A stretch of DNA of 64,000 nucleotides from Thalassolituus maritimus (GTDB taxonomy: Bacteria; Pseudomonadota; Gammaproteobacteria; Pseudomonadales; Oceanobacteraceae), in assembly GCA_913019975.1 (NCBI GenBank), contig CAJWBH010000014.1:61526-125525 (forward strand). The letters run 5' to 3'. Positions 1,875 through 31,003 of this stretch are shown in pieces (positions within the stretch are counted from its first letter, which is position 1; every line of letters starts with the position of its first letter). The notes under the pieces were generated by a model. It saw nothing but the letters and a program-made list of their open reading frames with translations, was not told the DNA's origin and did not search any database. The translations under genes were made by a program, and so were the position numbers.

Positions 1875-1934
1875 TTCGCGTGATGGCCTGGAAACGGGCC
1901 AATCCAACTAACTTACAGAATCAGCAGGAATAAC

Positions 1935-4315: not shown

Positions 4316-4347
4316 GCTTGATTTAGCCTTGATAGCTACTCCTTGAT

Positions 4348-4378: not shown

Positions 4379-4553
4379 GTTTGCCCTGATTGTCGCAGTC
4401 AGCAAGCTTTTGCCTATTGGTTGAATTGGAAAAATTCATTTCAATGGAACCAATATGGGTGTCACCCTTCTGAAATATGTTGGCAATGCACGATCAGAAA
4501 TAAAGATCGGTAGCAGCGATTACCACGAGGGTTGGAACTAAGCGGAGATCGAT

Positions 4554-5480: not shown

Positions 5481-5494
5481 TTTCCTGACGATAT

Positions 5495-6640: not shown

Positions 6641-6647
6641 GATCCTT

Positions 6648-6992: not shown

Positions 6993-7038
6993 GTTCAAGG
7001 TGTTCTTCTTTGTGATGTTTTAGCAGTCATTGATCGCT

Positions 7039-7635: not shown

Positions 7636-7637
7636 GG

Positions 7638-8096: not shown

Positions 8097-8098
8097 AC

Positions 8099-8701: not shown

Positions 8702-9855
8702 GACTTACCTCCGAAACTACGTGCTGCCACACCTTCCATATACGCATGAAAGATATCCAGGTAGCGCGGAATAGGAAGCAGAAAGGCATCGTGGCCGTTG
8801 TCAGATTCAATACAGGCATAGCTGACGTCTTTGTCGGCGTGGATCAGTGCATTCACGATTTCTTCCGAGCGCGCCGGGGCAAAACGCCAGTCGGTTGTGA
8901 AGGATACGACCAGAAAACGACATTTCGCCTGACTCAGGCATTTACGCAGATCATTATCGTGGTCGCGTGCCGGGTCAAAGTAGTCCAGTGCTTTGGTCAT
9001 CAGCATGTAAGTGTTGGCATCGAAGCGTGTACTGAATTTCTCGCCCTGATAGTGCAGGTAGCTTTCTACCTGAAACTCAGGAGCAAAACTGAAGTTCAGC
9101 TTACCCTCACGTAATTCCCGGCCAAATTTCTGCCGCATTGCATCGTCTGAAAGGTACGTCAGGTGCCCAAGCATCCGCGCTTGCATCAGGCCTGCTTTAG
9201 GCAGTGTTCCTTTCTCCTGATACCAGCCATCGTGAAAGTCGGGGTCTTTGGCGATGGCCTGTCGGGCGACTTCGTTAAAGGCGATATTCTGCGCTGAAAG
9301 TTTGGGGGCAGAAGCAATAACAACGGCGTGTTTCAGGCGCTCTGGAAACTGGATAGACCAGCGAAGCACCTGCATGCCACCGAGAGAGCCGCCGACAACG
9401 GCTGCCCAGACATCAATACCAAGAACATCGGCAAGGCGAGCCTGGCTGTTCACCCAGTCACGGACTGCCATGATAGGGAAGTCGGGTCCGTACGCTTTGC
9501 CGGTTTCAGGGTTGATACTGACCGGGCCAGTGGAGCCAGAGCAACCACCGAGGTTGTTCAGCGAAACGACAAAGAATTTATTCGTATCAATAGGCTTACC
9601 GGGGCCGATGCAGGTATCCCACCAGCCGGGCTTTTTGTCGTCCATGCTGTGATAGCCCGCGGCGTGATGATCACCGCTCAGGGCATGGCAGATCAGGACA
9701 GCATTGGAGCGGTCGGCGTTGAGTTCGCCATAAGTCTCGTAGATCAGGTCATATTGTTCTAACACTCGTCCGCTGCGTAATGTCAGGGGCGTGTCGAAGT
9801 GCTGAACCTTGGGTGTGACCAGTCCGACCGAGTTTTCTGGAATAACGTCCGGCAT
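8698..9855 (-). CDS. metX: Homoserine O-acyltransferase (MetX family, probably succinyl-specific)
   Basis: Alpha/beta-hydrolase acyltransferase, first committed step of methionine synthesis. The nucleophile lies in [10 protein letters not shown] at S157; the later acid and base are in FTTDWRFAP and [10 protein letters not shown]. Length 385 is standard. The N-terminal [16 protein letters not shown] oxyanion segment is typical. Family members coupled to metW in gammaproteobacteria are often succinyltransferases rather than acetyltransferases; I cannot settle the acyl donor from sequence alone. About 200 bp of non-coding DNA separates it from yggT upstream, so it probably has its own promoter. 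Confidence 0.93.
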
Positions 9856-10014
9856 CGGAGTCAGGTATCCATTTGCAAGCTAGTAATACAGCAAGTTTAT
9901 CAGGCTTAGAGCTGGCTTGGCACTGGCTGTGCCTGTCGGGAAAGGTAATGGTGCGTTGGCGTGGGAGGGCCATTCGCACTGAGGTTCACGGTTGGTTATT
10001 TATGCATCAGATAC

Positions 10015-10039
10015 GCGACAACAGAAGGCCTGTTGCCGC
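10015..10039. other. 10-bp hairpin between yggT and metX
   Basis: Inverted repeat GCGACAACAG / CTGTTGCCGC (one G-U pair) with a 5-nt loop. No T-run follows on either strand, so it is not a clear intrinsic terminator; it could be an RNA 3'-end stabiliser for yggT or part of the metX control region. The rest of the 199-bp gap shows nothing else I recognise. Confidence 0.35.
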
Positions 10040-10054
10040 GCAGAAAATTTTAGC

Positions 10055-10651
10055 TTATAGACCCATGATTAAGCCCGAAGGCACCTGCAGAACCTGTTTC
10101 AGTGGGTACAGAATCAGGATCTCAGCGAGCTGAATGCCAAGGATGACTACCAGTGGTGACAGATCAAGGCCACCCATGTCCGGCATGATCTTGCGTACCG
10201 GGCGGATAACCGGCTCAAGCAGCTGATTGATCAGGATCAGCGCCGGATTATACGACCCCGGAGCAACCCAGGAGGCGATCACCATGATCAGCATGCCCCA
10301 GAAATAGATACTGATGAGAAGCTTGATAATGCCCACCGCGGCCCAGCCGATCATGGCGACAAAGGGCATGCCTGTTCCGTAACCCGCGAGCATCAGAATC
10401 AGCGCCATGATGACGTACTGTATGGCCAGTGCGAGTACCAGTGACGCCATGTCGAGACCTCCAAGGCCGGGAATCACTCTGCGCAGTGGAATAAGCAGTG
10501 GATTGGTGAACTTCACAATCATCTGTGACAGGGGGTTATAGAAATCAGCGCGGACAAGTTGAAGCAGGAAGCGCAGCATAACGATCAGCAAGACAAGGCT
10601 TCCGATGGCGTTGACGAGCAGCAGACCCGCCTGTGTGAGTGGTGAACCCAT
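10055..10651 (-). CDS. YggT family integral membrane protein
   Basis: A 198-residue protein with two tandem YggT domains, each with two membrane spans. The repeat is visible as GLDMASLVLALAIQYV and GLDLSPLVVILGIQLAE, each preceded by LIPLRRVIPGLGG or VIRPVRKIMPDMGG. It is an inner-membrane protein of uncertain role; family members have been linked to osmotic tolerance and, in cyanobacteria and plants, to membrane-complex assembly. It sits downstream of proC and yggS in their usual order. Confidence 0.9.
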   Translation of the reverse strand: MGSPLTQAGLLLVNAIGSLVLLIVMLRFLLQLVRADFYNPLSQMIVKFTNPLLIPLRRVIPGLGGLDMASLVLALAIQYVIMALILMLAGYGTGMPFVAMIGWAAVGIIKLLISIYFWGMLIMVIASWVAPGSYNPALILINQLLEPVIRPVRKIMPDMGGLDLSPLVVILGIQLAEILILYPLKQVLQVPSGLIMGL

Positions 10652-10799
10652 GAATACTCCAGTTTAAATTGAGCGGCCTTTGGGCCGCACGGTACGATCT
10701 TGTTAACCCACTTGTTATCTCAAGTGCTTATATTCTCAAATACGTATTACCTCAGATGGGGACGCCTGAGAAAATTTCACCCCCCTGCTGAGTCAGGAT

Positions 10800-11621
10800 T
10801 CAGCCATTGCCCAGTTCGTCGCTGAGCTCAGCGGCTCTTCTTGCGGCGGCGTCCATGGCGGCTTTAACGAGATCGCGCAGGTGCGCGCCTTCGAACGTCG
10901 CGATTGCCTGTTCAGTGGTACCGCCCGGAGACGTTACCCGGCGACGTAATTCATCCGGGGCAACATCCGAACTGCTCGCCATTTTTCCTGCGCCCAGCGC
11001 CGTCTGTAAGGTCAGACGACGTGCGGTTTCTTCGCTCAGCCCGAGTTTGATACCGGCATCGATCATGGATTCCATCAGCAGGAAGTAGTAAGCCGGGCCA
11101 CTGCCAGACAACGCCGTGACCGCGTCAATTTCAGCTTCGGTCTGTACCCACATAGCCAGGCCTGTGGCGCCGAGCAAGGTATCCGTCAGATTACGCTGGT
11201 CCAGCGACACTTCTTCACTGGCAAACAACCCGGTAGCGCCGAAACCTGTCAGCGCAGGCGTGTTCGGCATTGCGCGTACGACGGCTGTACATCCACTCCA
11301 TTCTTTAAGCGTTGGAAGACTGATACCCGCTGCAACAGAAATAAGTAGCGGCTGGCGGGTGTTCAGCGTGGCCTGCAGCGGTTCCAGTACGGCTTTCATC
11401 ATCTGTGGCTTTACTGCAAGGATAACCACGGTCGCGCTGCTGATAGCGTCGAGATTGGACTCATGGGTCACAATGCCAAAATCGCGGGTGAGGCGTTCCC
11501 GTTGCTCTGCGCCTGGGTCACTGACGTGAATCAGATCCGGGCTGACTGCACCCTCTCTGATCAGGCCGCCGATGATGCTGGTGGCCATATTGCCACCGCC
11601 GATGAATGCTATCTGTGTCAT
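10800..11621 (-). CDS. proC: Pyrroline-5-carboxylate reductase
   Basis: Catalyses the NAD(P)H-dependent last step of proline synthesis. The start is placed at the ATG at 11621, giving 273 residues that open MTQIAFIGGGNMATSIIGG, the Rossmann GxGxxA-type motif at once; a 37-residue longer frame is rejected because it lacks homology and runs back into the yggS coding sequence. The C-terminal domain has ALSGSGPAYYFLLME and RRRVTSPGGTTEQAI, the conserved P5CR signature. It follows yggS by 25 bp. Confidence 0.96.
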   Translation of the reverse strand: MTQIAFIGGGNMATSIIGGLIREGAVSPDLIHVSDPGAEQRERLTRDFGIVTHESNLDAISSATVVILAVKPQMMKAVLEPLQATLNTRQPLLISVAAGISLPTLKEWSGCTAVVRAMPNTPALTGFGATGLFASEEVSLDQRNLTDTLLGATGLAMWVQTEAEIDAVTALSGSGPAYYFLLMESMIDAGIKLGLSEETARRLTLQTALGAGKMASSSDVAPDELRRRVTSPGGTTEQAIATFEGAHLRDLVKAAMDAAARRAAELSDELGNG

Positions 11622-11646
11622 TGTTGGTTCCTGCTTCTGAATACCT

Positions 11647-12348
11647 TCACTGAGCGCCCGGGATGTCCCGCGCTCCGAATATGTCTGTGCCGATACGAAC
11701 TTCCGTTGATCCACATGCAATCGCGAGTTCAAGATCGGACGACATGCCCATCGACAGCGTGTCTGCGTCCGGGCATAGTTCCTTTAATTCCTGCCACAGC
11801 CTATGCATTTTGAGGAACTGATCTCGCAGTCGCTCCTCATCGCTGGTTGCTTCCGGGATACACATCAATCCCCGAACTTTCAGTCTAGGCAAGGATAGGA
11901 GATTCTGCGCAAAACTCGCGACGCTGTCTGTCGCGATGCCACTCTTCTGCTCTTCGTTACTGATGTTGACCTGGATAAGTACGTTCAGCGGCGGCAGATC
12001 GTCAGGGCGCTGTTCATTCAGGCGGCGGGCGATCTTTTCACGATCCAGCGTTTCCAGCCAATGAAAGTACTCGGCGACCGGGCGTGTTTTGTTTGATTGC
12101 AGCGGGCCGATAAAATGCCACTCGATGTCGGTCAGCTCCGACAAGGCTTCAATCTTGTCGAGCCCATCCTGCAGGTAATTCTCACCGAAGGCTCGCTGAC
12201 CCAGTTCATAACAGGTGCGCACCATGCTCGCGGGTTTAGTTTTACTCACCGCCAGCAGGCGAATGCTTTCAGGCTCGCGTGAAGCGTTTGCACAGGCCGC
12301 GTTAAGACGCTCACGGACCCGTTGATAGTTCTGTTCGACAGTAGACAT
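11647..12348 (-). CDS. yggS: YggS family PLP homeostasis protein
   Basis: Alanine-racemase-fold protein that binds pyridoxal phosphate and buffers it; it has no known catalytic activity. The start is set to the ATG at 12348 (MSTVEQNYQRVRE), giving 233 residues, the usual length, and discarding 18 non-conserved residues of a longer frame. Seen: the PLP lysine in LLAVSKTKPA near 32-41, GENYLQDGLDK, EWHFIGPLQSNKTR, and the phosphate-binding LSMGMSSDLELAI near the C-terminus. It heads the yggS-proC-yggT group and is divergent from pilT. Confidence 0.95.
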   Translation of the reverse strand: MSTVEQNYQRVRERLNAACANASREPESIRLLAVSKTKPASMVRTCYELGQRAFGENYLQDGLDKIEALSELTDIEWHFIGPLQSNKTRPVAEYFHWLETLDREKIARRLNEQRPDDLPPLNVLIQVNISNEEQKSGIATDSVASFAQNLLSLPRLKVRGLMCIPEATSDEERLRDQFLKMHRLWQELKELCPDADTLSMGMSSDLELAIACGSTEVRIGTDIFGARDIPGAQ

Positions 12349-18498: not shown

Positions 18499-18783
18499 AT
18501 GGAAGCAATCACATACGACTCAATGGACTCCCTGCTCGGTCAGCAAGTGACTTTATCGGACCATGCTGAAAATTCCGTGCGGCTGACCATCTCAGAGGTT
18601 GAGCGTACGGCGCTGGATGGTGATGAGTGGGAGGCGTTTGCAGTCTCGCTTGAGGGGCAGGATGATTTTCGGGTACCGCAGGGGATGTATCGGCTCACGC
18701 ACGAGGCGATTGGCAGTGGCGAACTCTTTATTACTGCGCACGGCCCGACCGAGTATCAGGCCGTGATCAGCAGGAAGCGTTAG
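18499..18783 (+). CDS. DUF6916 family small protein
   Basis: A 94-residue protein resembling the DUF6916 family, with SLLGQQVTLSD near 11-21, an acidic beta-rich middle, FRVPQGMYRLTHEAIG near 57-72, and YQAVISR at the end (family pattern QGxYxLxHxxLG). The family is small, cytoplasmic-looking and uncharacterised; members I know of occur beside phage tail-collar-like proteins, as here. A TTTACAGGACG stretch before the ATG supplies a ribosome-binding site. It starts the collar/surface-protein region; a GNAT gene on the opposite strand separates it from the collar genes. Confidence 0.65.
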   Translation: MEAITYDSMDSLLGQQVTLSDHAENSVRLTISEVERTALDGDEWEAFAVSLEGQDDFRVPQGMYRLTHEAIGSGELFITAHGPTEYQAVISRKR

Positions 18784-18807
18784 GAATCATCTATGCATGG
18801 ATGCAGA

Positions 18808-19311
18808 TCAGACAGACATCAATGCGGGCGTTGTCTCCATCAGAACATAGACCTCATTAAAGCGGCTGACCTCCTTGAAGCCCAGGCGCTCATAGAGTTT
18901 TTTCGCCGGATTATTCTGCTCAACGTGAATTCTCACCGGCAGGCCTTTCTCATTACCTTCTTCGATTATGTTCTGCAGCAGGTAGCTGCCTGCGCCAGAG
19001 TCCTGGTGTTCTGGAAGGATGGCAATATCAACAATGCGGATTTCATCGCTCCAGTAATCAATAAAGAAACGACCGGAAGGTCGGCCATCAATTTCAATAA
19101 TGCAGAAATGATCGCTGCAGTAATGGCTGTGGTAGTGCTGTGTCTGTGCCGAAAACTGCTGCTGAATAAAAAGTGTTTTTTGTTGTTCGTTAAAGGGCGT
19201 CATCGCCAGCTCCGCTTCGCGGGTGGTGCGGTATAACGACTCCATAAACGAATAATCATTGTCGCGTACAGAGCGCAGTGTGATGCGGCTTTCCCAGGCT
19301 CGGTTGGTCAT
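18808..19311 (-). CDS. GNAT family N-acetyltransferase
   Basis: Predicted acetyl-CoA-dependent N-acetyltransferase of 167 residues. Start chosen at the ATG at 19311 because AAGGA sits 7 bp before it; a 9-codon longer frame is less likely. Motif A of the GNAT fold is IAILPEHQDSGAGSYLLQ, followed by HVEQNNPAKKLYERLGFKEV (motif B). The substrate is unknown. Its place between DUF6916 and the collar triad, on the opposite strand, recurs in microcystin-dependent-protein-like loci as far as I recall; a role in modifying the neighbours would be inference. Confidence 0.88.
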   Translation of the reverse strand: MTNRAWESRITLRSVRDNDYSFMESLYRTTREAELAMTPFNEQQKTLFIQQQFSAQTQHYHSHYCSDHFCIIEIDGRPSGRFFIDYWSDEIRIVDIAILPEHQDSGAGSYLLQNIIEEGNEKGLPVRIHVEQNNPAKKLYERLGFKEVSRFNEVYVLMETTPALMSV

Positions 19312-19394
19312 TGGTAGTTCCTTGATTACCAGGATCATTCTTAGGAAGAAAGTGTGGGTAAAACCACGAATAAAGTAAACAGAGGGAGATCAGA

Positions 19395-19910
19395 ATGGCA
19401 GAACCTTTTTTGAGTGAAATCCGCATGTTCGGATTCGGCTGGCCGCCGCGTGGCTGGGCCGAATGCGATGGCCAGATTTTACCTATTAATCAAAATCAGT
19501 CTTTGTATTCATTGCTGGGTACGACTTACGGGGGCGATGGGCGCACGTCATTTGCACTGCCTGACCTCCGTAGCCGGACACCAGTGGGGATGGATGCAAG
19601 TTTGCGCCAGGGTCAAGGTGAGGGGATAGAAACCGTGACCCTCACGGGTGCCAATATGCCAGCGCACCGACATCCATTGAATGCGACGACAGAAGGCGGA
19701 ACGACCAAGTCCTTTGATGGCAATATATTAGCGTCCGCAGTCGATGATGGTTCACCAACGGATTACTATGCAGAGCCTCAGAACCTGGTCTCGTTCGCAT
19801 CGCAATCGGTGTCTTATATTGGTGGTTCTATGTCGCACAATAACGAACAGCCATCCCTCGTCGTTAATTTCTGCATCGCGATGCAGGGCCTTTTCCCATC
19901 GCGTAATTAA
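19395..19910 (+). CDS. Phage tail-collar domain protein (MdpB-like), paralogue 1
   Basis: 171 residues. N-terminal collar fold with the hallmark FLSEIRMFGFGWPPRGWAE, CDGQILPINQNQSLYSLLG and TYGGDGRTSFALPDLRSR, then a His-containing segment MPAHRHPLN, and a C-terminal NEQPSLVVNFCIAMQG. These features match microcystin-dependent protein MdpB-type sequences, which are related to the receptor-side collar of T4 short tail fibre gp12. No signal peptide. First of three tandem paralogues spaced 10-14 bp apart. No other phage structural genes are near, so this is not a prophage. Confidence 0.88.
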   Translation: MAEPFLSEIRMFGFGWPPRGWAECDGQILPINQNQSLYSLLGTTYGGDGRTSFALPDLRSRTPVGMDASLRQGQGEGIETVTLTGANMPAHRHPLNATTEGGTTKSFDGNILASAVDDGSPTDYYAEPQNLVSFASQSVSYIGGSMSHNNEQPSLVVNFCIAMQGLFPSRN

Positions 19911-19920
19911 GGAGCCAGTT

Positions 19921-20451
19921 ATGTCAGAACCATTTGTTGGCGAGATTCGTATGTTCGCCGGAAATTTCGCTCCGCGTGGCTGGGCTTTCTGTGATGGTCA
20001 GCTGCTGGCTGTCAGCCAGAATGATGCGCTGTTTTCATTGATCGGGACGATTTATGGCGGTGATGGCCGCACTACATTCGCTTTACCGGATATGCGCGGT
20101 CGCTTGCCTGTGCATCAGGGGCAAGGACCGGGGTTAAGCCCGCGCCGCCTGGGTGCGCGTTACGGCAGTGAGAAGGTGAACCTGACCATCAATCAGATTC
20201 CCAGTCACAGTCACGAATATCTGGGGTCGGCCAATATCGCTGATAGCAACAACCCGGCAAGTGATGTTGTAGCGTCTCATAATGATGGTGACCTTCCTTA
20301 CGTTGAGGTGCCGTCAGTCGACAAAATCAAAAGCCTCAGTAGCGATGCAGTCAGTGCGACGGGTGGCTCACAAGCGCATGAGAATATGATGCCGTCACTG
20401 TGCATTAATTACATTATGGCCCTGGTCGGTATTTATCCCTCGCGGCACTGA
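19921..20451 (+). CDS. Phage tail-collar domain protein (MdpB-like), paralogue 2
   Basis: 176 residues from the ATG at 19921, preceded by AAGGAGCC; a longer frame reaching back into paralogue 1 is rejected. It opens MSEPFVGEIRMFAGNFAPRG and keeps CDGQLLAVSQNDALFSLIG, YGGDGRTTFALPDMRGR, HQGQGPGLSPRRLG and the C-terminal ENMMPSLCINYIMALVGIYP. It differs from paralogue 1 by the RRLG segment shared with paralogue 3, suggesting 2 and 3 are the closer pair. Probably co-translated with both. Confidence 0.88.
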   Translation: MSEPFVGEIRMFAGNFAPRGWAFCDGQLLAVSQNDALFSLIGTIYGGDGRTTFALPDMRGRLPVHQGQGPGLSPRRLGARYGSEKVNLTINQIPSHSHEYLGSANIADSNNPASDVVASHNDGDLPYVEVPSVDKIKSLSSDAVSATGGSQAHENMMPSLCINYIMALVGIYPSRH

Positions 20452-20465
20452 AAAGGAGTTTTATT

Positions 20466-21005
20466 ATGTCTGAACCATTTATCGGAGAAATCCGTATTTT
20501 TGGCTGCAACTTTGCCCCTCGTGGCTGGGCCTTCTGCCAGGGGCAGTTACTACCGATTGCTCAGAATACGGCATTGTTCTCAATTCTGGGTACAACCTAT
20601 GGTGGTGACGGTCGTACGACACTTGCCTTGCCGGACCTGCAGGGCCGTGCGCCGATGCATCCGGGGCGAGGTCCTGGTCTGACAGCGCGTCGTCTGGGAG
20701 AAACAACCGGCGTTAATGAAGTCACGCTCACAGAGGCCGAACTTCCCAACCATAAGCACGTCGTCTACGGGGCTCAGACAGTGGGTACAGAGGCGTCACC
20801 ATCGAATACCAGAATGATGGCGATAGACAGACCGTCGACTGGCGACAATATCGTGTACCTGAACACCGCATCGACGAAAAATACAGTGATGGCAACCGAG
20901 ACCATCGGTTCGATGGGGGGGAGCCAGGCGCACGAAAACCGTCAGCCTTTGATGGGCATGAATTTTTGTATCGCGCTGGTGGGGCTCTACCCAAGTCGCA
21001 GTTAA
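20466..21005 (+). CDS. Phage tail-collar domain protein (MdpB-like), paralogue 3
   Basis: 179 residues, opening MSEPFIGEIRIFGCNFAPRG, with CQGQLLPIAQNTALFSILG, TYGGDGRTTLALPDLQGR, HPGRGPGLTARRLGETTG and a C-terminal ENRQPLMGMNFCIALVG. The middle (about 95-150) is the variable part of the three paralogues, as expected for the exposed region of a collar trimer. An AAAAGGAG site precedes the ATG. A four-unit 13-bp repeat begins inside its stop codon. Confidence 0.88.
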   Translation: MSEPFIGEIRIFGCNFAPRGWAFCQGQLLPIAQNTALFSILGTTYGGDGRTTLALPDLQGRAPMHPGRGPGLTARRLGETTGVNEVTLTEAELPNHKHVVYGAQTVGTEASPSNTRMMAIDRPSTGDNIVYLNTASTKNTVMATETIGSMGGSQAHENRQPLMGMNFCIALVGLYPSRS

Positions 21006-21053
21006 TCGCCAGAGTTAACGGTAAGGATTAACGGCGAGGCTTAATCGCGATAA
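21002..21053 (+). repeat. Four 13-bp tandem repeats overlapping a stop codon
   Basis: TTAA recurs at 21002, 21015, 21028 and 21041, exactly 13 bp apart, in units TTAATCGCCAGAG, TTAACGGTAAGGA, TTAACGGCGAGGC and TTAATCGCGATAA. The first unit contains the stop codon of the third collar gene. Confidence 0.75.
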
Positions 21054-21070
21054 GTGATGTGTGTACGAGT

Positions 21071-21094
21071 GAGGGGCAGGGAGGCCCCTCTTTC
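21071..21094 (+). terminator. Hairpin after the collar triad
   Basis: Perfect 7-bp stem GAGGGGC / GCCCCTC with a 6-nt loop followed by a short TTTC tract. It may be a weak or partial intrinsic terminator separating the collar genes from the subtilase, 27 bp upstream of the subtilase start. Confidence 0.45.
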
Positions 21095-21116
21095 AGTTTG
21101 ATTGGTTTGAGAAATA

Positions 21117-22328
21117 ATGCGTATTTTATTGCTGTTGCTCGTTATATTTTCGTCCCCTGTAATGGGTTGTGAACTGCCATTCCCGAATCTCGGTAAAGTC
21201 TGGTGCTTAGTGCCTTCCGCCAATGACTCCCAGACAGGCGTGTACCGGGTCAGTGGCAAAGATTTGCAGGTAAGTTTGTCTGATCGCCTGATTGTTCGGG
21301 CAAATGGCTTTACTCGCGAATCCCTGCAGGCGCTTGATTCGCGTATTGAGGCTGTCAGTGAGCTTTACCTCATGGACGACGCCGTCTATTACTCCGTTAA
21401 TGTCGGCATAAAAGACCGCCTTCCCGGAGTGATCCGTTCGTTGTCTAAGGTTCAGGGCATCAGTCTGGTGCAGCCAGATATCCTGCAACTGCGGGAGAAG
21501 CATGTAACAGACGTCCCGGCGCTGACTCCTCCCGCCTATCTCACCCAGCTCGGTATACCTGAGTTGTGGCCGGCGACTCCTCAAGGGCGAGGGGTGCGCG
21601 TTGCCGTTATTGATGATGGTTTTGATCTGGAGCATGAGGAGCTCACGCACACTCAGGTGATTTTCAGTTACGACACGACCAGCCGTTCACAGGATGTAAG
21701 CCCAGGGGGAGGGGATGACTCGCATGGAACCAGAGTCGCGGGCACGATATTCGCTGCTCATAATGGCGTCGGCATTGACGGAATCGCGCCGCAGGCGAAC
21801 CTGATAGCTATCCGTCAGCCGGATACCTGGACGAGTCATACGATCCTCAGTTTCTACCTCTCTAAACTGTCTCAAGCTGACATTGTTAACGCTAGTTGGC
21901 GCTCCCAATGGTTATTGGAACCCGTCGCTGATATTGTTGAAGACTTGGCGCAAAATGGCCGCAGAGGAAAAGGCTCTGCTGTGGTATTTTCCGCCGGAAA
22001 CAGTGGTATGGAGTTGACTGGGGGTGACTCGGAATCCCAGCTGCAAGCCGCTGTGGTGATCGGAGCAGATAACGGACAGGGACAAAGGACGAGGTTCAGC
22101 AACTATGGACAGTCAGTGGATGCATACGTTTATGGTAAGGCCGCGCCCGCAGTGGTGCCGGGCGGCTATGGACGTTTCAGTGGCACTTCCTTGTCTGCGG
22201 CTGTGGTCAGTGGCTATTTTGCTCTTCTTCTCTCACAAGACCCGTCGCTTACCCTTCATCAGTTGGTTGCGCGACTGCAACAACGCTTGTCTCTATATCA
22301 GTCCAGTCTGCAGGGGCCAGAATCATGA
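21117..22328 (+). CDS. S8 (subtilisin-like) serine protease, probable lipoprotein
   Basis: 403 residues with the complete subtilase triad: Asp in VAVIDDGFD (D166), His in DSHGTRVAGT (H203) and Ser in RFSGTSLSAAVV (S358); the oxyanion Asn region is VVFSAGNSG. An N-terminal signal sequence ends SSPVMGC with Cys18 in a lipobox-like setting, so a membrane-anchored periplasmic or surface place is plausible. Residues ~30-130 resemble an inhibitory propeptide-like domain. Its stop overlaps the next start (ATGA), tying it to the TIGR03032 gene and the giant surface protein, which could be its substrate (inference). Confidence 0.9.
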   Translation: MRILLLLLVIFSSPVMGCELPFPNLGKVWCLVPSANDSQTGVYRVSGKDLQVSLSDRLIVRANGFTRESLQALDSRIEAVSELYLMDDAVYYSVNVGIKDRLPGVIRSLSKVQGISLVQPDILQLREKHVTDVPALTPPAYLTQLGIPELWPATPQGRGVRVAVIDDGFDLEHEELTHTQVIFSYDTTSRSQDVSPGGGDDSHGTRVAGTIFAAHNGVGIDGIAPQANLIAIRQPDTWTSHTILSFYLSKLSQADIVNASWRSQWLLEPVADIVEDLAQNGRRGKGSAVVFSAGNSGMELTGGDSESQLQAAVVIGADNGQGQRTRFSNYGQSVDAYVYGKAAPAVVPGGYGRFSGTSLSAAVVSGYFALLLSQDPSLTLHQLVARLQQRLSLYQSSLQGPES

Positions 22329-23557
22329 CTGATACGCCCCAAACTCAGGAGCCGCAGGAAGATTCTGCACAGAATGACACTGTGAAGAATGACGCTTTGG
22401 AGAGCGCGACTGATTTCTCGTTTACGTATTCGGGAAATATCCCCGCGATCCTTAAGCATCTGAATATCTCTTTGGCGTTTACTTCCTATCAGGCCGGTCG
22501 TCTGATGCTGGTTCGTACGGACGGAGAAGACCTGGAAATCAACTTTAAAGAATTTCCCCGACCAATGGGCCTGACGGCAACCGATCAGGGGCTGATACTC
22601 GGTACCTTTACTCAGATTATTCAATTCCAGCGAGAAGACGGTCTGCTTGAGCAGATTAAGAAACCCCTGCCGGATATTGCTCAGGACATCACTGCGCCCC
22701 GAGCCCATAAAAACGACGAAGAGAAACAGGCCGACGCCGAAAAGCGGCTGGCGAATAAGACCTATGTTGAAAAACTGAAACCGGTCGACGCACGCGTCGA
22801 TGCTTGTTTTATTACCCGTTCAACTCACTACACCGGCATGATTAACATCCATGACATCGAATGGGGAAACACTGGTTTATGGGCGGTTAATTCAAGTTTT
22901 TCATGCCTTTGTACTATCGATCCTTCCTACAGTTTTGTGCCTCAGTGGAAGCCCCCATTTATTGAAACACTGACGCCTGAAGACCGCTGCCACTTAAATG
23001 GCATGACGCTCCGCGATGGTGAGCCTGCGTATGTCACCACCTTTTCCCAATACGAAGACCGCAAACAGTGGCGTGACAGCGACAAGCATACGGGCACGCT
23101 GATTGACGTAAAGCGCAATGAAGTGGTGGTCAGTGGACTGGCAATGCCTCATTCACCGCGTTGGCACAATGGTCGGGTTTATTTCTGTCATTCGGGGCTG
23201 GGTCATCTCAATTGCTATCACCCTGACACGGGTGAAATGGAAGTGATTGCAGAATTGCCGGGCTTTACCCGGGGAATCGATATTTACGGCAGCATTATGT
23301 TTGTCGGCTTATCGCGTAAGCGTCAGAGTGATGTGACAAGCCCCGGCCTGGTGACCGAAGACTCCGAGAAAACCTGCTCAGGTATCTGGCTGTTTAACCT
23401 CGATACGCACGAAGTGATCGGCACCATTAAATTTCAGGGCAATGTTGATCAGATATACGACATCGCCATCTTATATAACACCAGCTTTCCGGAAGTGATC
23501 GAACCTGATCACCCGAGAATGCGGAACCACTTTTCTCACCCAGGCCTCCCAACCTGA
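22325..23557 (+). CDS. TIGR03032 family protein
   Basis: 410 residues. Recognised from FTYSGNIPAILKHLNISLAF-type opening (FSFTYSG then SLAFTSYQAGRLMLVR), FPRPMGL, ARVDACFITRSTHYTGMINIHDIEW-type core (ITRSTHYTGMINIHDIE), WAVNSSFSCLC, DRCHLNGMTLRDGEPAYVT, GLAMPHSPRWHNGRVYF and a late LPGFTRGIDIYGSIMFVGLS. The repeated short strands suggest a beta-propeller. No signal peptide; the first 30 residues are polar. The family is uncharacterised. It is translationally coupled to the subtilase before it and lies 10 bp before the giant protein, so a role in that protein's maturation or modification is a reasonable hypothesis only. Confidence 0.8.
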   Translation: MTDTPQTQEPQEDSAQNDTVKNDALESATDFSFTYSGNIPAILKHLNISLAFTSYQAGRLMLVRTDGEDLEINFKEFPRPMGLTATDQGLILGTFTQIIQFQREDGLLEQIKKPLPDIAQDITAPRAHKNDEEKQADAEKRLANKTYVEKLKPVDARVDACFITRSTHYTGMINIHDIEWGNTGLWAVNSSFSCLCTIDPSYSFVPQWKPPFIETLTPEDRCHLNGMTLRDGEPAYVTTFSQYEDRKQWRDSDKHTGTLIDVKRNEVVVSGLAMPHSPRWHNGRVYFCHSGLGHLNCYHPDTGEMEVIAELPGFTRGIDIYGSIMFVGLSRKRQSDVTSPGLVTEDSEKTCSGIWLFNLDTHEVIGTIKFQGNVDQIYDIAILYNTSFPEVIEPDHPRMRNHFSHPGLPT

Positions 23558-23567
23558 AGGATTTATT

Positions 23568-26500
23568 ATGGATAACAATCCCAATAAGAAACGACCAGGA
23601 ACGTCGGCGCCATTGAAAGCTATCGCGCCTGTGATCGCCATGGCTGTGCCTTTCTCTGCGCCTTTTTCTGCATCAATGGCCAATGCATCTTCGCGCTTAG
23701 CCAGTGTCAGCCGCAATGGCCTGAATAAGCGCGCTGTTGTTTCTCAGGTTGAGCAATACCGTCGTCCAGAGGCGGCAGGAGCATTCTCCGCGTTTGGGGG
23801 CGTTGCAAATGCACGGGCTGTTTCTCGAACGGTTGATCAGGACGCGCTCGCTTTTCTGGCCAGCAATGATTTGTTATCGGTTGGCGATGAAAGGGTCGGA
23901 TATGAAAGTGGCGACCTGGATGATCTGACCGGCAGAAAGAATTTTCTTAGCTGCACGAAAAGTGGTGCACCGTATTACTTCCCGGGCGGAACTTTTCCGA
24001 TTACCACTTCGTTTTTCTGTACCAGTCTCTATAGCGCAAACTGGATTCCTGGCCAGGACGAGCAACCCCCGCATTTCAAAGACGGTATTGGCCAGGAAAC
24101 TCTGGTCGATATGACGATTCTTCCCGGCAACTCAGATTCTCAGTTGTTTGAAATGGCCGACAAGAACCTCAGCTCGATTTCATTGACCGCCGCGTCCAGT
24201 AACCAGGCCGCGGTACGCGATGCCGATATTACGATTACTCGTGACGCGGTCGCGATCGATACTTACACCATAGCGATCAACAATGTAGTGGGCGGTGGTG
24301 GCGCGACCATTACCGTAACGGCTACCGATGGTAATGGTAATTCCCGGAGTGACACTTTCTTTATCGACACGGGTGTAGCGCCAGATCCTCTGGAAATGAC
24401 CGGAGGTGACAGCGCAGTGTCTCTGATGATTCTTGAGGATGCCGGGCTGACCGCACTCAGCGCTGCGGATTTCGCTGCGGCAACCGGTGCGACGGGTACG
24501 CTGAGCTGGTCAGCGAGCGGGGCAACAAAAGGCACCGCCAGCGCAACGGGTTCAGTGTCAGCGCCAACGACCGGTGCCTCACCTACGTCGGTCACATACG
24601 CACCGAACGCCAATGCCACAGGCAGTGATACCTTTACCGTTACCGTCAATGATGGCTCGGCGACCGACAGTCGTGCTGTGAATGTCACTATTACTCCAGT
24701 GAACGATGCACCAACGCTGATTGTTCCGTCGACGCAGCGCGTCAGTGGCACAGGGGGCTCGCAGCGGTCCATTCCGGGGTATGCGACAGCGCAGCCGGGA
24801 GGTGGTTCTGATGAAGCTGGCCAGACATTTACCTATTCGGTGGTAGAAACCCTTGATGAAAATAATGTTGTTTCCGGCGTGTCCATTACGTCAACAGGAG
24901 AACTGCGCTTCACCCCGGCGGTGGATGCGGAAGGCTACGCTTACTACTCCGTCACGGTGACCGACAGCGGTGGTACCGCCAACGGTGGGGTAGATACCTC
25001 GGCACCTATTGTGGTGACGTTGAGCATCGACACTCTGGCTCCGGAACTCACTCTGAACACGCCGGTTGCCTCACCGACCACGGATCACCGTCCGGAAGTC
25101 ACCTACTCCTCGAACGAAGCCGGTTACCTGTCAGGCGGCGGTTCGTGTGGTGTGGCAGATGCAGGACTGAAAACTCCCGGAACGTACACCGTTCGCCTGA
25201 CGCAGACCGACAATACTACGCCGCTGGCTGATGGCACCTACAGTGACTGTACACTGATCGTGGAAGACACGAACGGCAATGCCACTACATTGCCGCTGGG
25301 TACCTTCGTTGTAACGTCTGACCTGACGCCGCCAACCGTCACTTCAGTCGACGTTCCCACCAACGGGACCTACGGTGTTGGCGATGTACTGAGTTTCACG
25401 GTGAACACTGACGAAGCCGTTAACGTCAGCGGCAGTCCGGCAATCAATATGATGATTGGCGGCACTCCGCGCAAAGTTACTTACAGCAGTGGTTCCGGCA
25501 GCCAGTCACTGGTGTTCAGTACGACGGTCGCTGTTGGCGATCTGGACACCGATGGTATCGAAGTACTGTCTCTGACCCTGGACGGTGGAACACTGACCGA
25601 CGCCGCGGGCAATGCGATGGACCTGACACTGAATGGCCGTGGCCCGACCGCGGGCATTCTGGTTGACGGTGTGGCCCCCGTTGTCAGCAGTGTCACTGTA
25701 CCTGCTGCCGGTACCTATGCCGTGGGGGATGTGCTTGCCTTTACGGTTACTGCATCCGAAGCACTGACCATTTCTGGAGGCACGCCTTCGCTTGAACTGG
25801 TCGTTGGCTCTACAGTCCGTCAGGCATCCATGGTAAGTGCTTCCGGCACAGATATGACCTTTACCTATACCGTGACTGCTGGTGACCTGGATAGTGACGG
25901 CATTTCCGTAAACAACCTAGTGGCTAACGGTGCGACCCTGCAGGACGCTGCTGGAAATGATCTGGCTCTGGGAGTGGGTGCGGTTGATAGTAGTGGCGTG
26001 CTTGTTGATGCTGTTGTGCCCGTAGTGACCTCTGTTGCGGTGCCGGCTGATGGCTTATACAGCGAAGGTGGCACGTTCGACTTTACCGTAAACCTGTCAG
26101 AGCCGGTTACGACCACTGGCGCTCGCCCTGTATTGAATCTGAATATTGGTGGGCAGTTACGCGAAGCCGCATTGTTGGATGGTAATGGAACTGCAGCACA
26201 TGTATTCCGCTACGCCGTACAACCGGGCGATGAAGATTCTGACGGCATCGAAGTGCTGACCATGGATCTGAAAGGCTCAACGGCAGTCGATGCTGCCGGT
26301 AACGGTCTGAATACGGCGTTGAATAACGTCGCGACAACAACAGGTATCACGGTCGACGCGGTAGTGCCTGTAATCAGTGTGATCAACACCAGCGCCACAG
26401 CAACAATCCCAGCCGGCGGGACGCACGACTTTATTCTGCGCTTCTCCGAAGATGTCACTCTGAATACCACGGGTGGCAGCCCTCGAATTGCTCTCGATGT

Positions 26501-29500
26501 GGGTGGCGAAATCCGTTATGCAACGGCGCCCACTTCTTTCTCTGGTGTGTTCGCGACCTTTACCTATACCGCTCTGGCTGGCGATGTTGATACCGACGGC
26601 ATCAGCATGACGGCGATTGAACCGAACGGTGGATATTTTGCAGACGCTGCGGGCAACCGTGTTGACCTGACAAGCTATGTGACCCCGGATACCAGCAATC
26701 TGAAAGTGGATGCGATTCCACCGTCAATTTCTGGTCTTGAGGTCACTGCTCCGAACCATGCGAAAGCAGGTGATGAAATTACTGTCACACTGGTAGCAGA
26801 TAAAGTGATCACGCTGGGGAATGGTGGTATTCCAGCGATCAAATTACAGGTAGGTAGTCGTGAAGTGGATGCTCTGTATCGTACGGGGTCGGGCACTCAG
26901 CGATTTGATTTCACCTATACGGTGGTCGACGGGGACAACGACGGTGATGGCTTTGCTATTAACAGTCTGGCCATGAATGCTGCAGTGATTGAAGACAGTG
27001 CGGGTAATGCGCTGGATACCACATTGCCTTCTCTGCCTGATACATCGGCCTATAAGGTTGATACCACAGCGCCAGCGTTGCAGTCATTCCGTCGCCACAA
27101 CCCGGTTGATGAAGTCACCTCCAGTGACTCACTGACCTGGCGCGTGGAATTTAATGAGGCCGTTAGCGGTGTCATGCCGACAAGTTTCTCCGTGTCCGGA
27201 ACAACCGCGACTGTTGTCACGGCAAAAATTACTGACACGACATATGACGTCACGGTTACCGGGGGCGATTTATCTGCTCTGGATGGCACGGTTGGGCTTA
27301 ACCTCGCCGCAACGTCGGGGATCACTGACCTGGCGGGCAATGCACTGCCAGCGACTGAGCCCGCGACGGATGAAACCTACACCGTCGATAACACGGCACC
27401 TGCGGTGAACATTCAGGCGCCATCAGCAACGTTAACGTCCAGTACCGCGATTACTTATGTGGTCCAGTACACAGACGCTGATAGCATCAGCCTGAGTGCT
27501 GACGACATCGCCGTGACATCGACGGGAGATGCCGCTGCGGGCACGATTACCGTGACGGGAAGCGGGCCAATGTCGAGAACCGTGACTCTGAGTGACTTCA
27601 GTGGCGACGGTACTCTGGCCATCGATATTGCTGCGGGTACGGCAGAGGACGGAGCAGGTAACGCCAGTGCCGCACCGGCCACGTCAGATGCCTTTACCGT
27701 TGATACTACGCGACCTACGGTCAGCATTACCGCACCGACCGCATCGCCTGATCCGTTCGATATTACAGTGACCTTCAGCGAGTCAGTGTCTGATTTTGTT
27801 GTGGGGGACATCACGATAGCGGGCGGCAGCCTGAGTGAGTTTGCCGGCTCTGGCACGACTTATACCGCGAAGGTTACCCCGAACGTCGTCGGCTCTCCGG
27901 TAAACCTGAGTATCGCTGCGGATGTCGCTGAAGATGCTGCGACCAACGGCAACGAAGCTTCCGCATCCGTGTCGGTAGATACCAATAACGTACCGACGAT
28001 TGCGATTAGCGGTGATGAGATTGAAGGCCAGACTCTGGCCGCTCAGTTGTCTGACAGCGATGGCGTCAGTGGAGCCGTTACCTACGATTGGGTGTCTGAC
28101 GGAAACAGCGTTGGCAATGCCGAAACCTACACGCTGCAAGCCAGTGATGTGGGGAACCAGTTGAGCGTTAACGCTGTATATACCGATGACGCAGGTTATG
28201 CCGAAAATGTCACCTCTGCACTGACCGGTGTGATTATCAGCATCGAGCAGAACGCCTGGAACAACATCGGCGACAGTGTGGGCTCACCATCGACGCCAGC
28301 GTCGTTTGATGACTACGGTAATGTCGGTCTGAGTGGCCCGAGTGATGATGAACTGAACCGCATTATGTCGATTCTGAATCGTGCCGTCAGTCAGCAGGCA
28401 GCGGTGACCGACATCGATGAACTCAGCGAACTTGAAGCACTGGTCGATACCATTATGGAAGGTCAGGACGACGACAAAGACGGTCTGCCGAATCTGGTTG
28501 AAGACGATGGTCTTAAAGACACCGACCGCGACGGCATTGATGATCGTGACGATGTCGACGCCGATAATGACGGGATCCGCGACAATCTCGAAGTCGATGC
28601 CCTTGGCGCCATGGACGACGATGATGCCGACGGCATTGTAAATCTCTTCGACTTTGATCAGGACGGCGATGGCTACCCAGATTCAAGAGACTTCAGCGAT
28701 GCCAACCTGGATGGTGTGATTGATGAATTCGATACGCTGGAAGAGCTGGTGGATTACTTTGCGGCTGATGCGACAGGTACACCAGTAGCTCCGGGTGCGG
28801 TTTCCGGAGCGGCCTCGGTTCTCGCAGCCAGAAATGCCGAAGTGGATACCGACGGCGATGGCCTGATCAATTCTCTTGATATCGATTCCGACAACGACAG
28901 TGTGCCGGATGTTATTGAGGCTGGTCTTTCCGATAGCAATGATGATGCCCTGGTCGATGATGGCACTGCCCTTATTGAGGATGCCAATGACCTGCCTGAC
29001 ACAGACAGCGATAGCCGTGCAGACTTCCTGCAACTACTGAGTAACGGTACAGACCCTGATATCAGCCAGTCTGCCGTCTTCACTGCAACCATGGTTGCGG
29101 CGCTGGATCAGGACGGTGATGGTCAGCTCGATAGCACTACGGATGTTGATCTCGATGGATTAATGGATGTTGTTGATAACGCGATCGGCGCCTTTGGCTC
29201 TGCCAAAGACTTCGATGGCGATGGTATCCCGAATCACCTTGATCCGGATGATGACAACGACAACATCTCAGACATCGAAGAAAACGCTGAGCTGGCGCAA
29301 TTCTTCACTGGCGAAGATGCCGACGGTGACGGCATTGATGACGGCTTCGATGCCGAAATCAATGGCGTGACCTATGGTACCGACACCAACAACAATGGCG
29401 TGCGCGATGATCGTGAACTACCTGACCTCGATGGCGATGGGCTGGTCGACTATCTGGATGACGATGCAGATAACGATGGCATTCACGACAGTGTTGATGA

Positions 29501-30227
29501 CGATATCTCTCTGCCGGTAGATCCGGGACCGGGTAATGGTCAGGCGCCGGGTAACAACGATGCCGATGGTGATGGCGTGGACGATGATGTTGATGCATCG
29601 GTGAATTCTGATAACGACGTTGAAGTATCGACAGGCGTTGGTAGTGCTGGTCTGGCCACCCTGTTTGCCCTGGGGTTAGTGCTGGTGGCGGTGCGTCGCA
29701 AGCCAATACTGGCGGCAACGCTGCCTTTACTGTTAGCGGCTCAGGCGGTGAAAGCAGAGAATGATAACAACCACTGGAGTATCGGCACTGCGGTTGGTCT
29801 GAGTAAATACGATACGAATATCGTTGGCCCTGGCCTTGAGTTAACTGACCGCGAAGGCCTCGGGTTTCAGCTCAACGCCGGTTATCACCTGAACAGCGAG
29901 TTGAGCGCGGAAGTTGCTCTTACCGAGCTGGGTGATGCGGGTGTTGGTACTGGCTGGGTCAGTTATCAGAGTCAGGCAATATTCCTCGGTTACCGTCCAG
30001 AGGCGATTCAATATTCTGGCTTCCGGCCGCAGGTTAAGGTGGGAGTGAATCGTATGGAATATGAAGGTCACAAAGGCCTGAATATTGATAAAGAATCAGC
30101 CACGATGCCGGCATGGAGTCTTGGGGTTGATTACCCTCTGGGGCGCGAAGGATACGTGGAGTTAATGTTTACAGCATTCTCGGAAGAGGTGAACTTTTAC
30201 AGTGTGGGCTTCCGTCAGCGCTTTTGA
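23568..30227 (+). CDS. Giant Ig-like/TSP3-repeat surface protein with C-terminal beta-barrel
   Basis: 2219 residues. An N-terminal export-like segment (about 17-42) is followed by a unique region to ~225, cadherin/Ig-like domains to ~580, then several ~110-residue Ig-like modules (pattern VxSVxVPxxGxY..GDVLxFTV..SEAVT..GD.DxDGI...) to ~1560. Residues ~1634-2015 are calcium-binding thrombospondin-3-type repeats (DTDRDGIDDRDD, DADNDGIRD). Next come a glycine-led hydrophobic segment 2025-2041 closed by RRK, a second signal-like segment VRRKPILAATLPLLLAAQAV with an A-x-A site near 2063, and a ~156-residue outer-membrane barrel ending in Phe. A ribosome-binding GAAGGA precedes the ATG at 23568. 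Last gene of the collar/subtilase/TIGR03032 cluster. Function is unknown; adhesion or surface display is inferred. Confidence 0.88.
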   Translation: MDNNPNKKRPGTSAPLKAIAPVIAMAVPFSAPFSASMANASSRLASVSRNGLNKRAVVSQVEQYRRPEAAGAFSAFGGVANARAVSRTVDQDALAFLASNDLLSVGDERVGYESGDLDDLTGRKNFLSCTKSGAPYYFPGGTFPITTSFFCTSLYSANWIPGQDEQPPHFKDGIGQETLVDMTILPGNSDSQLFEMADKNLSSISLTAASSNQAAVRDADITITRDAVAIDTYTIAINNVVGGGGATITVTATDGNGNSRSDTFFIDTGVAPDPLEMTGGDSAVSLMILEDAGLTALSAADFAAATGATGTLSWSASGATKGTASATGSVSAPTTGASPTSVTYAPNANATGSDTFTVTVNDGSATDSRAVNVTITPVNDAPTLIVPSTQRVSGTGGSQRSIPGYATAQPGGGSDEAGQTFTYSVVETLDENNVVSGVSITSTGELRFTPAVDAEGYAYYSVTVTDSGGTANGGVDTSAPIVVTLSIDTLAPELTLNTPVASPTTDHRPEVTYSSNEAGYLSGGGSCGVADAGLKTPGTYTVRLTQTDNTTPLADGTYSDCTLIVEDTNGNATTLPLGTFVVTSDLTPPTVTSVDVPTNGTYGVGDVLSFTVNTDEAVNVSGSPAINMMIGGTPRKVTYSSGSGSQSLVFSTTVAVGDLDTDGIEVLSLTLDGGTLTDAAGNAMDLTLNGRGPTAGILVDGVAPVVSSVTVPAAGTYAVGDVLAFTVTASEALTISGGTPSLELVVGSTVRQASMVSASGTDMTFTYTVTAGDLDSDGISVNNLVANGATLQDAAGNDLALGVGAVDSSGVLVDAVVPVVTSVAVPADGLYSEGGTFDFTVNLSEPVTTTGARPVLNLNIGGQLREAALLDGNGTAAHVFRYAVQPGDEDSDGIEVLTMDLKGSTAVDAAGNGLNTALNNVATTTGITVDAVVPVISVINTSATATIPAGGTHDFILRFSEDVTLNTTGGSPRIALDVGGEIRYATAPTSFSGVFATFTYTALAGDVDTDGISMTAIEPNGGYFADAAGNRVDLTSYVTPDTSNLKVDAIPPSISGLEVTAPNHAKAGDEITVTLVADKVITLGNGGIPAIKLQVGSREVDALYRTGSGTQRFDFTYTVVDGDNDGDGFAINSLAMNAAVIEDSAGNALDTTLPSLPDTSAYKVDTTAPALQSFRRHNPVDEVTSSDSLTWRVEFNEAVSGVMPTSFSVSGTTATVVTAKITDTTYDVTVTGGDLSALDGTVGLNLAATSGITDLAGNALPATEPATDETYTVDNTAPAVNIQAPSATLTSSTAITYVVQYTDADSISLSADDIAVTSTGDAAAGTITVTGSGPMSRTVTLSDFSGDGTLAIDIAAGTAEDGAGNASAAPATSDAFTVDTTRPTVSITAPTASPDPFDITVTFSESVSDFVVGDITIAGGSLSEFAGSGTTYTAKVTPNVVGSPVNLSIAADVAEDAATNGNEASASVSVDTNNVPTIAISGDEIEGQTLAAQLSDSDGVSGAVTYDWVSDGNSVGNAETYTLQASDVGNQLSVNAVYTDDAGYAENVTSALTGVIISIEQNAWNNIGDSVGSPSTPASFDDYGNVGLSGPSDDELNRIMSILNRAVSQQAAVTDIDELSELEALVDTIMEGQDDDKDGLPNLVEDDGLKDTDRDGIDDRDDVDADNDGIRDNLEVDALGAMDDDDADGIVNLFDFDQDGDGYPDSRDFSDANLDGVIDEFDTLEELVDYFAADATGTPVAPGAVSGAASVLAARNAEVDTDGDGLINSLDIDSDNDSVPDVIEAGLSDSNDDALVDDGTALIEDANDLPDTDSDSRADFLQLLSNGTDPDISQSAVFTATMVAALDQDGDGQLDSTTDVDLDGLMDVVDNAIGAFGSAKDFDGDGIPNHLDPDDDNDNISDIEENAELAQFFTGEDADGDGIDDGFDAEINGVTYGTDTNNNGVRDDRELPDLDGDGLVDYLDDDADNDGIHDSVDDDISLPVDPGPGNGQAPGNNDADGDGVDDDVDASVNSDNDVEVSTGVGSAGLATLFALGLVLVAVRRKPILAATLPLLLAAQAVKAENDNNHWSIGTAVGLSKYDTNIVGPGLELTDREGLGFQLNAGYHLNSELSAEVALTELGDAGVGTGWVSYQSQAIFLGYRPEAIQYSGFRPQVKVGVNRMEYEGHKGLNIDKESATMPAWSLGVDYPLGREGYVELMFTAFSEEVNFYSVGFRQRF

Positions 30228-30229: not shown

Positions 30230-31003
30230 TCAACGCGGAGAAAGCGCTTGTCCAAGGGCAGAGAAATAGCGAGCGAAGGCTTGGTTAATTCTCTGCCGCA
30301 GGGAGCCAGAAGGGTATAACCCCAGCTCGGCCTCACGTGACTTTTTTGTGCCTTTGACCAGAAAGTTATTCTTGATAGGCGCGTCCTGAACGAAGGCTTC
30401 AAACGCTCTGGCAGTCATCTCCTCCGGGCGAGAATAGTAAAGAATACCTGATGCACGGTCAGCCTTGGCTGAGGCGCTGAAAAGATCGCTAGGGGCGTCG
30501 CCGGTAGGGTCGAGGATGACTGCCCGGAAGCAAGCAAAAAGGAGATCGTTGAGAGGGTGAGCTACTGGTGTGGCTTTTTGATTGAGCCACTCTGGTGAGG
30601 CAAAGCGGCTTGCAGGCAGGTCGGCAAAAGCCTGTTGTGCAATGTAATGGTCGAAGGCATGAAACCATTCATGGGCGATACTCCCCGGCCCGGCATTCTT
30701 GGCCAGAGCAAACGCACGTTCCTGAGGGCTGTAGTGCGCTGCTACACCTCGGCGGCCTCCGGTGCCGAAGTGCAGGGCGATAGACCCCCTCAATGAAATC
30801 ACAGTCTCGGGAACCCCGAGGATGTGCATAAGATCACAGAGTGCATCGTAGAAATGCACTGCAGCTTGCTGTTGTTCACTGGCGGTTACCCAGCGCCCGG
30901 TTTTGACGGCGTAGAAGCCGAAGCGTTCACGTACCTCACGGAACGAGATGTATTCGTCCGCAGAACGATGCTGCGGCCCGTTACGTGTAATGGGGTAGAT
31001 CAT
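30230..31003 (-). CDS. CLCA_X family protein (putative zinc metalloprotease-like)
   Basis: 257 residues. The segment SIAHEWFHAFDHYIAQQ near 108-124 carries an HExxH-type helix (HEWFH) followed by FDH, as in metallopeptidase-like domains, and YYSRPEEMTARAFEAFVQD near 191-209 may supply the third ligand. Other recognisable parts are FRFGFYAV-like EVRERFGFYAVKTGRWV and ALHFGTGGRRGVAAHY. There is no signal peptide. This matches the family called CLCA_X by annotators, whose substrate is not known. It converges on the giant surface protein with 2 bp between stops and is divergent from the GGDEF/EAL gene. Confidence 0.75.
   Translation of the reverse strand: MIYPITRNGPQHRSADEYISFREVRERFGFYAVKTGRWVTASEQQQAAVHFYDALCDLMHILGVPETVISLRGSIALHFGTGGRRGVAAHYSPQERAFALAKNAGPGSIAHEWFHAFDHYIAQQAFADLPASRFASPEWLNQKATPVAHPLNDLLFACFRAVILDPTGDAPSDLFSASAKADRASGILYYSRPEEMTARAFEAFVQDAPIKNNFLVKGTKKSREAELGLYPSGSLRQRINQAFARYFSALGQALSPR

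Follow-up and report, generated by a model that had tools for sequence, protein, structure and literature searches.

Here, we report the predicted architecture of a giant surface protein encoded in a 64,000-nucleotide stretch (the window) of Thalassolituus maritimus assembly GCA_913019975.1 (contig CAJWBH010000014.1, positions 61,526 to 125,525, forward strand). Shortly before its C-terminus, the protein (the giant; 2219 aa) carries a segment resembling a GlyGly-CTERM sorting tag, the type that rhombosortase cleaves, followed by a putative second signal peptide and a predicted OmpA-type barrel. We propose, with a probability of roughly 55%, that the giant is a polyprotein that would yield a sorted surface protein and an OmpA-type barrel, that the core of its locus comprises the giant, a subtilase, and a protein of family TIGR03032 (DUF4915), and that a neighboring block of phage-tail-collar genes is accessory. 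Sorting tags are sought at protein ends, so embedded tags are missed; here, in marine bacteria, a surface protein and its anchor may be products of the same gene.

Architecture of the giant

The giant is a single open frame (window positions 23568 to 30227, + strand) with Pfam matches to Big_12 and Big_9. Its N-terminal signal peptide and a conserved N-terminal module (23568 to 24047, from the alignment) are followed, much further on, by acidic DxDxDG (TSP3-like) repeats (28518 to 29585); the TSP3 region named in an earlier, sequence-only reading of this DNA was recovered as 11 pattern matches, with no Pfam match in fragment 28500-29750. The same reading had recognized the C-terminal barrel, which stands, and had overlooked two hydrophobic segments before it. 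The first of these (residues 2023 to 2045; 29634 to 29702; assessed by eye, model, and hidden Markov model [HMM] scoring) has the GlyGly-CTERM pattern by eye, with a Gly/Ser motif (GVGSAG), a hydrophobic helix, and a basic cluster (RRK). The second (residues 2046 to 2063; 29703 to 29756; by eye and from the split counterpart in locus L074) ends in AVKA and is the putative remainder of a second signal peptide, of which the preceding RRK would be the n-region. The 156 residues after AVKA (29757 to 30224) form the barrel, which has a final F and with which the open reading frame (ORF) stops.

A model of the C-terminal fragment gave two helices at low confidence (the predicted tag helix being residues 18-34 of the fragment) and eight strands. 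OmpA led both the fold matches (Foldseek) and the profile matches (1.1e-5) for the barrel, and Pfam OMP_b-brl reached 27 bits, slightly below its cut-off of 28.7. By prediction, this is an eight-stranded transmembrane barrel of the OmpA type. The peptidoglycan-binding OmpA domain is absent after the barrel in the window giant and present in one relative (L128), whose fused part is a whole OmpA including the wall-binding domain.

Among 28 classified giants linked to subtilase genes, 20 were fused (tag, signal peptide, and barrel in one frame), 5 ended just after the tag (L066, L074, L076, L078, and L146), and 3 were without a tag (L083, L087, and L084). The last of these was counted for its N-terminal module, no subtilase being visible, and broken or contig-cut giants, L129 and L136 among them, were excluded from the count. 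The junction in fused giants consists of a Gly/Ser motif, a helix, basic residues, a second hydrophobic stretch ending in Ala, and the barrel. In 13 fused alignment rows this Ala lies, by eye, at a plausible signal peptidase site, with an unusual −3 residue in L072; an automatic A-x-A count after the helix (34 of 47 rows, including the unfused L074) was set aside as too loose. The split state is seen in Bowmanella (L074), where the giant's frame terminates behind the tag and its stop is overlapped by a separate 193-aa barrel frame (PF13505, 44.6 bits) that has a signal peptide of its own. The fused or unfused state changed at least five times on a quick tree (two to three times counting only starred branches), and no clustering of the two states beyond that of shuffled data was seen (103 of 500 shuffles gave as low a value).

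The junction extends beyond giants of this kind. Across 293 genomes of the taxonomic order, at least 25 have large ORFs that end in it, and 16 of these genomes are without TIGR03032; the figure of 25 is a lower bound under the rule used (profile start of 23 or less, open frame of at least 700 aa). We inspected 36 C-ends, and the Gly motif itself was not seen for genome G043. Rhombosortase scored above its cut-off in 24 of the 25 junction genomes versus 71 of 268 others (Fisher P = 3.7e-12, in a test that ignores kinship of genomes), and among genomes with subtilase-linked giants it did so in 25 of 25 with the tag and 0 of 3 without. The window's own genome has a rhombosortase (TIGR03902, 131 bits; cut-off, 84) and at least three further fused ORFs of the tag-signal-barrel kind with OmpA-like C-ends, namely a 3295-aa protein with complete OmpA (C13 [L205], 1841-11728, − strand) and two fused proteins in tandem (C2 [L206], 1-2727 and 2849-6877, both + strand). 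One of the tandem ORFs supplies, with its embedded tag, the best GlyGly-CTERM match in this genome (17.5 bits). In genome G199, a rhombosortase-type frame (L207:3345-3956, − strand), whose true start may be later, overlaps the end of a fused frame (3943-7941) by 14 bp on the same strand. GspD was present in 12 of 12 genomes checked, the window's own included. A second rhombosortase-like match in the window's genome (C34:4388-4882, − strand) scored 77.2 bits against the cut-off of 84, with similar matches in G104, G132, and G178.

Several results weigh against a polyprotein sorted by rhombosortase. The window segment was not matched by the GlyGly-CTERM HMM (TIGR03501; cut-off, 15.5 bits), and its best models were those of MYXO-CTERM (TIGR03382, 15.9 bits at a cut-off of 15.85; TIGR03901, 15.6 bits at a cut-off of 20). 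The signal peptides were judged by eye, and the predicted helices in the model have low confidence. Genome G009 has the junction and no rhombosortase above the cut-off, and GspD also occurs in Campylobacterota without rhombosortase matches. In four of the five unfused relatives, no barrel gene was found beside the giant in the DNA examined (3′ DNA being short in L076 and L078), so a giant-barrel pair is not obligatory. Giants that lack both tag and barrel (L083 and L087) have the subtilase and TIGR03032 beside them as well, which makes the N-end and C-end machineries independent. The tag itself is atypical in position, with 174 residues following it, and the invariant cysteine described for the MYXO-CTERM motif (PMC11980579) is absent, the segment being without Cys. 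With mixed TIGR03501 scores (above cut-off in four of seven embedded segments, the window's among the seven and below, and in none of three tags at true C-ends, a further adverse result), we say that the segment would work like a GlyGly tag, not that it is one.

Proposed mechanism and alternatives

Architecture, fused and split states, co-occurrence, and folds were taken from sequence and prediction, and from these we infer every cleavage, modification, secretion route, and docking step, as well as the roles of the subtilase and TIGR03032. The N-terminal signal peptide would export the long region of immunoglobulin-like (Ig) domains and acidic repeats until the GlyGly-CTERM-like helix stops transfer, leaving the basic cluster on the cytoplasmic side. 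These basic residues would double as the start of the second signal peptide, re-starting export of the OmpA-type barrel, which signal peptidase I would release and the BAM machine insert in the outer membrane. Rhombosortase may cut the helix and modify the surface part, which would exit by type II secretion. The two products would thus come in a 1:1 ratio, with the barrel as the probable docking site of the surface part, a role that TraB has for TraA in Myxococcus. At the other end, the subtilase may mature the giant's N-terminal module, and TIGR03032 would be a cytosolic propeller that binds the giant or helps modify it before export.

The barrel might instead be translated from its own start near the basic cluster, the shared frame then being an extreme overlap of two genes, an account that we take as the main alternative and consider unlikely. 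A GTG before RRK in the window would yield a usual signal peptide, the L074 arrangement is a true gene overlap, and of 17 fused genes, 4 have their best Shine-Dalgarno-like site before an in-frame start near the junction within 1% of background, and 10 have it within 10% (window, 0.08); however, the other seven lay at 0.24 to 0.67 of background, every figure was picked as the top one from 1 to 6 candidates, and in L063 the basic cluster was misplaced in the scoring. Glycine codons make Shine-Dalgarno-like sequence and may be the cause of the mild excess at the junction. It is very improbable, in our judgment, that the giant stays uncleaved, with the barrel holding it in the outer membrane as in an autotransporter: the order of signal peptide, passenger, and C-terminal barrel ending in F would suit such a chain, but two hydrophobic segments precede the barrel, eight strands are predicted, unfused relatives stop at the tag, and rhombosortase co-occurs with the junction. 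Classical autotransporters have a 12-stranded barrel joined to the passenger without membrane helices, and that identity was rejected on the predicted strands and the two hydrophobic segments.

Relation to known systems

GlyGly tags have been described as C-terminal, and 219 nonredundant substrates had no further membrane segment from the signal peptide to the tag (PMC3237569). Rhombosortase substrates such as VesB (PMC3237569, PMC13393428) resemble the window giant in having a signal peptide, a long exported part, and a Gly/Ser motif with helix and basic residues, and in the presence of rhombosortase and GspD in the genome; their tag lies at the extreme C-terminus, whereas in the giant the residues after it comprise a second signal peptide and a barrel. 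The nearest described case is MXAN_5598 of Myxococcus xanthus, a single atypical protein with a large adhesin region and an internal MYXO-CTERM before an outer-membrane barrel and OmpA domain (PMC11980579), which its authors liken to TraA plus TraB, suggesting gene fusion and processing. That case is one protein, with MYXO-CTERM and myxosortase and an OmpA wall-binding domain, whereas here the tag is of the rhombosortase type, many genomes carry the fusion, a split counterpart exists, and the window giant is without a wall-binding domain. TraA and TraB of M. xanthus, which form 1:1 complexes (PMC12045341), likewise pair a CTERM-tagged surface protein with an OmpA-barrel partner, and traA and traB overlap by four bases (PMC3325183, PMC12045341). 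They differ in being two genes, in the TSP3 region and the OmpA domain after the barrel of TraB, and in their role in outer membrane exchange. Within the literature retrieved, in the parts available, on GlyGly-CTERM and rhombosortase, on internal signal peptides and polyproteins, and on rhombosortase with OmpA, only the Myxococcus case was met. The novelty is the rhombosortase-type tag, the natural split state, and the linked N-terminal pair, in a widespread variant of a kind glimpsed once, in MXAN_5598.

If the polyprotein reading is true, the ratio of surface protein to anchor would be fixed, the OmpA-type barrels that end giant ORFs would be explained, and a class of rhombosortase substrates in environmental bacteria would be added.

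The N-terminal module and its gene pair

The subtilase (21117 to 22328, + strand; PF00082 [Peptidase_S8], 123.4 bits) has a signal sequence, and its frame shares an ATGA overlap (22325-22328) with that of the TIGR03032 protein (22325 to 23557, + strand), which ends 10 bp before the giant. The catalytic triad claimed for the subtilase was borne out by eye (motifs IDDG, HGT, and GTS), and the lipobox-like signal is present here (PVMGC) but is not a conserved feature. It recurs only in the closest relatives, other subtilase N-termini mostly resemble ordinary signal peptides by eye, and a lipoprotein subtilase was rejected.

Giants linked to the subtilase/TIGR03032 pair have in common the N-terminal module, consisting of a signal peptide, a Ser/Arg-rich stretch, F-x-x-F, L-x-F-L with L-L, S-G, and G-R-K-x-F; individual alignment rows deviate from this pattern in places. 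The module profile matched only 8 of the 293 genomes of the order, the same 8 in which the subtilase and TIGR03032 were found together; the matches are partly by construction, the absence from 285 genomes is not, and G006, outside the profile's own rows, was matched at 5.5e-15. The module is presumably what the pair acts on, and trimming of the giant by the subtilase, as proposed from sequence, is plausible.

The TIGR03032 protein is a full-length HMM match (379.1 bits; cut-off, 251.5) and was modeled confidently as a propeller, probably six-bladed (predicted local distance difference test score, 87.3; predicted template modeling score, 0.85). A fold search returned generic propellers, mostly six-bladed among the 50 PDB matches shown, a sequence search against PDB gave no relative below E 0.26, and a literature search by family name gave no paper on TIGR03032, DUF4915, or DUF6916. 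Away from the subtilase, a large secreted-type protein neighbors TIGR03032 at 10 of 15 loci, compared with 19 of 110 background genes (P = 1.5e-4, by a crude rule); by eye, these neighbors (not all scanned) include autotransporter-like, CSLREA-like, and VCBS-like proteins. The window protein shares the full family match and its branch is subtilase linked, whereas members elsewhere bear TPRs or are fused to Asp/Asn hydroxylase and sulfotransferase. One such fusion (L039:9576-12668, − strand) is a single chain of 1030 aa with Asp/Asn beta-hydroxylase, sulfotransferase, and DUF4915, and another member has Asp/Asn hydroxylase and PhyH genes nearby. In Campylobacterota (L106, L107, L108, and L109), TPR-type TIGR03032 genes lie near autotransporter-like proteins that share a long signal sequence (SRFRILKGGK). 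No Asp/Asn hydroxylase or sulfotransferase-type modification enzyme was found beside TIGR03032 in the window. We infer that the family serves the modification of giant surface proteins before export; its strict pairing with the subtilase and the N-terminal module, together with the hydroxylase/sulfotransferase fusion, offers testable clues to TIGR03032/DUF4915.

A broader picture is possible and is put forward tentatively. Many marine gammaproteobacteria may encode a surface protein together with its own outer-membrane receptor in one chain that splits itself, a single basic cluster both ending a rhombosortase tag and starting a second signal peptide. In a subset, the N-terminus may be matured by a dedicated pair, a subtilase and TIGR03032; the latter, a cytosolic propeller, would serve as docking subunit in a system that modifies giant surface proteins of several secretion types by hydroxylation or sulfation.

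Conservation of the locus and the accessory block

TIGR03032 occurs in 30 of the 293 genomes (23 above cut-off, with surroundings examined in 19 of these); around TIGR03032 in G179, G045, G200, and G011, only about 1.5 kb was viewed, with no subtilase there. By this protein, the closest named relative is T. maritimus (97% identity), and three of four other same-genus genomes have the same gene order, the fourth (G104) being without TIGR03032. Scanning a single genome per species with a subfamily alignment yielded 54 TIGR03032 loci, including Colwellia, Shewanella, Vibrio, Pseudoalteromonas, Rheinheimera, Hahella, Sulfurimonas, and SAR324; a subtilase was present in 46 and lay at most 200 bp away in 43. 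The sequence-only reading had staked its proposal in part on these families not being adjacent only here, and the order indeed recurs across many genera, so the arrangement is not chance.

We take the locus to split in two, an accessory block (collar triad, DUF6916, and GNAT) and a core (subtilase, TIGR03032, and giant). The block comprises genes for DUF6916 (18499 to 18783, + strand; PF21880, 66 bits), a GNAT acetyltransferase (18808 to 19338, − strand; PF00583, 52.1 bits), and three collar proteins matching PF07484, all on the + strand and without signal peptides: collar 1 (19395 to 19910; 97.7 bits; N-terminus inspected), collar 2 (19921 to 20451; start ATG at 19921; 105.4 bits, scanned from 19918), and collar 3 (20466 to 21005; 97.8 bits). 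The gaps within the triad are 10 bp and 14 bp, and Pfam/NCBIfam matches and coordinates upheld what had been described here, from the closely spaced triad and its DUF6916 and GNAT flanks to the ATGA coupling and the giant 10 bp on. Between collar 3 and the subtilase are 111 bp containing a terminator-like hairpin (21071 to 21090, + strand), which is weak evidence from a pattern scan that gave 20 such sites versus 11.1 expected.

Upstream DNA of 4200 bp or more was available at 48 loci; of these, 24 had the three collars, DUF6916, and GNAT, and 22 showed no collar. Of 369 genomes in the class, 11 (the window's own among them) carry DUF6916; neither subtilase nor TIGR03032 was found at any of the 10 loci in other genomes (mostly 20 kb of DNA; only 3.3 kb for L112), and the collar triad was present at 5 of them. 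That collars, DUF6916, GNAT, subtilase, and TIGR03032 jointly build or display the giant, as the sequence-only reading had it, is thus unlikely: the genes do accompany giant surface proteins, the whole block stands beside the core in 24 of the 48 loci, and collar or DUF6916 blocks elsewhere lie near surface-type proteins (an Ig protein with a GlyGly-like tail and then a rhomboid gene in L139, a PEP-CTERM protein in L137, and a DUF4347/cadherin protein in L145), but the collar-free core loci and core-free DUF6916 loci mark two separable modules, the TIGR03032 tree shows 9 changes in the collar block, and here the hairpin separates the blocks. A single nine-gene machine was therefore not taken as the default. 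At the L141 collar/DUF6916 locus, no surface-type protein was found nearby. The same reading had the collars and TIGR03032 assist the giant; each of these, like DUF6916 and GNAT, is without a hydrophobic N-terminus, so a direct part in surface display is unlikely, and action before export is possible.

Its statement that the locus is not a prophage held. Among seven proteins scanned with PHROGs (GNAT and the giant were left out), only the three collars matched tail families, and the flanking genes are non-phage by eye; a prophage or tail-derived weapon was rejected, there being no phage structural neighbors in either survey.

A similar protein of about 700 aa lies near three collar blocks (L049:6708-8813, − strand; L074:701-2839, + strand; L092:1088-3202, + strand), with a PhyH dioxygenase domain in both scanned copies (L049 and L092). 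On the other side of the locus, a CLCA_X family gene (30230-31003, − strand) with an HExxH-like motif (HEWFH) adjoins the giant on the opposite strand; such a gene also stands beside the giant in G178 and G278 and lies two genes further on in G132.

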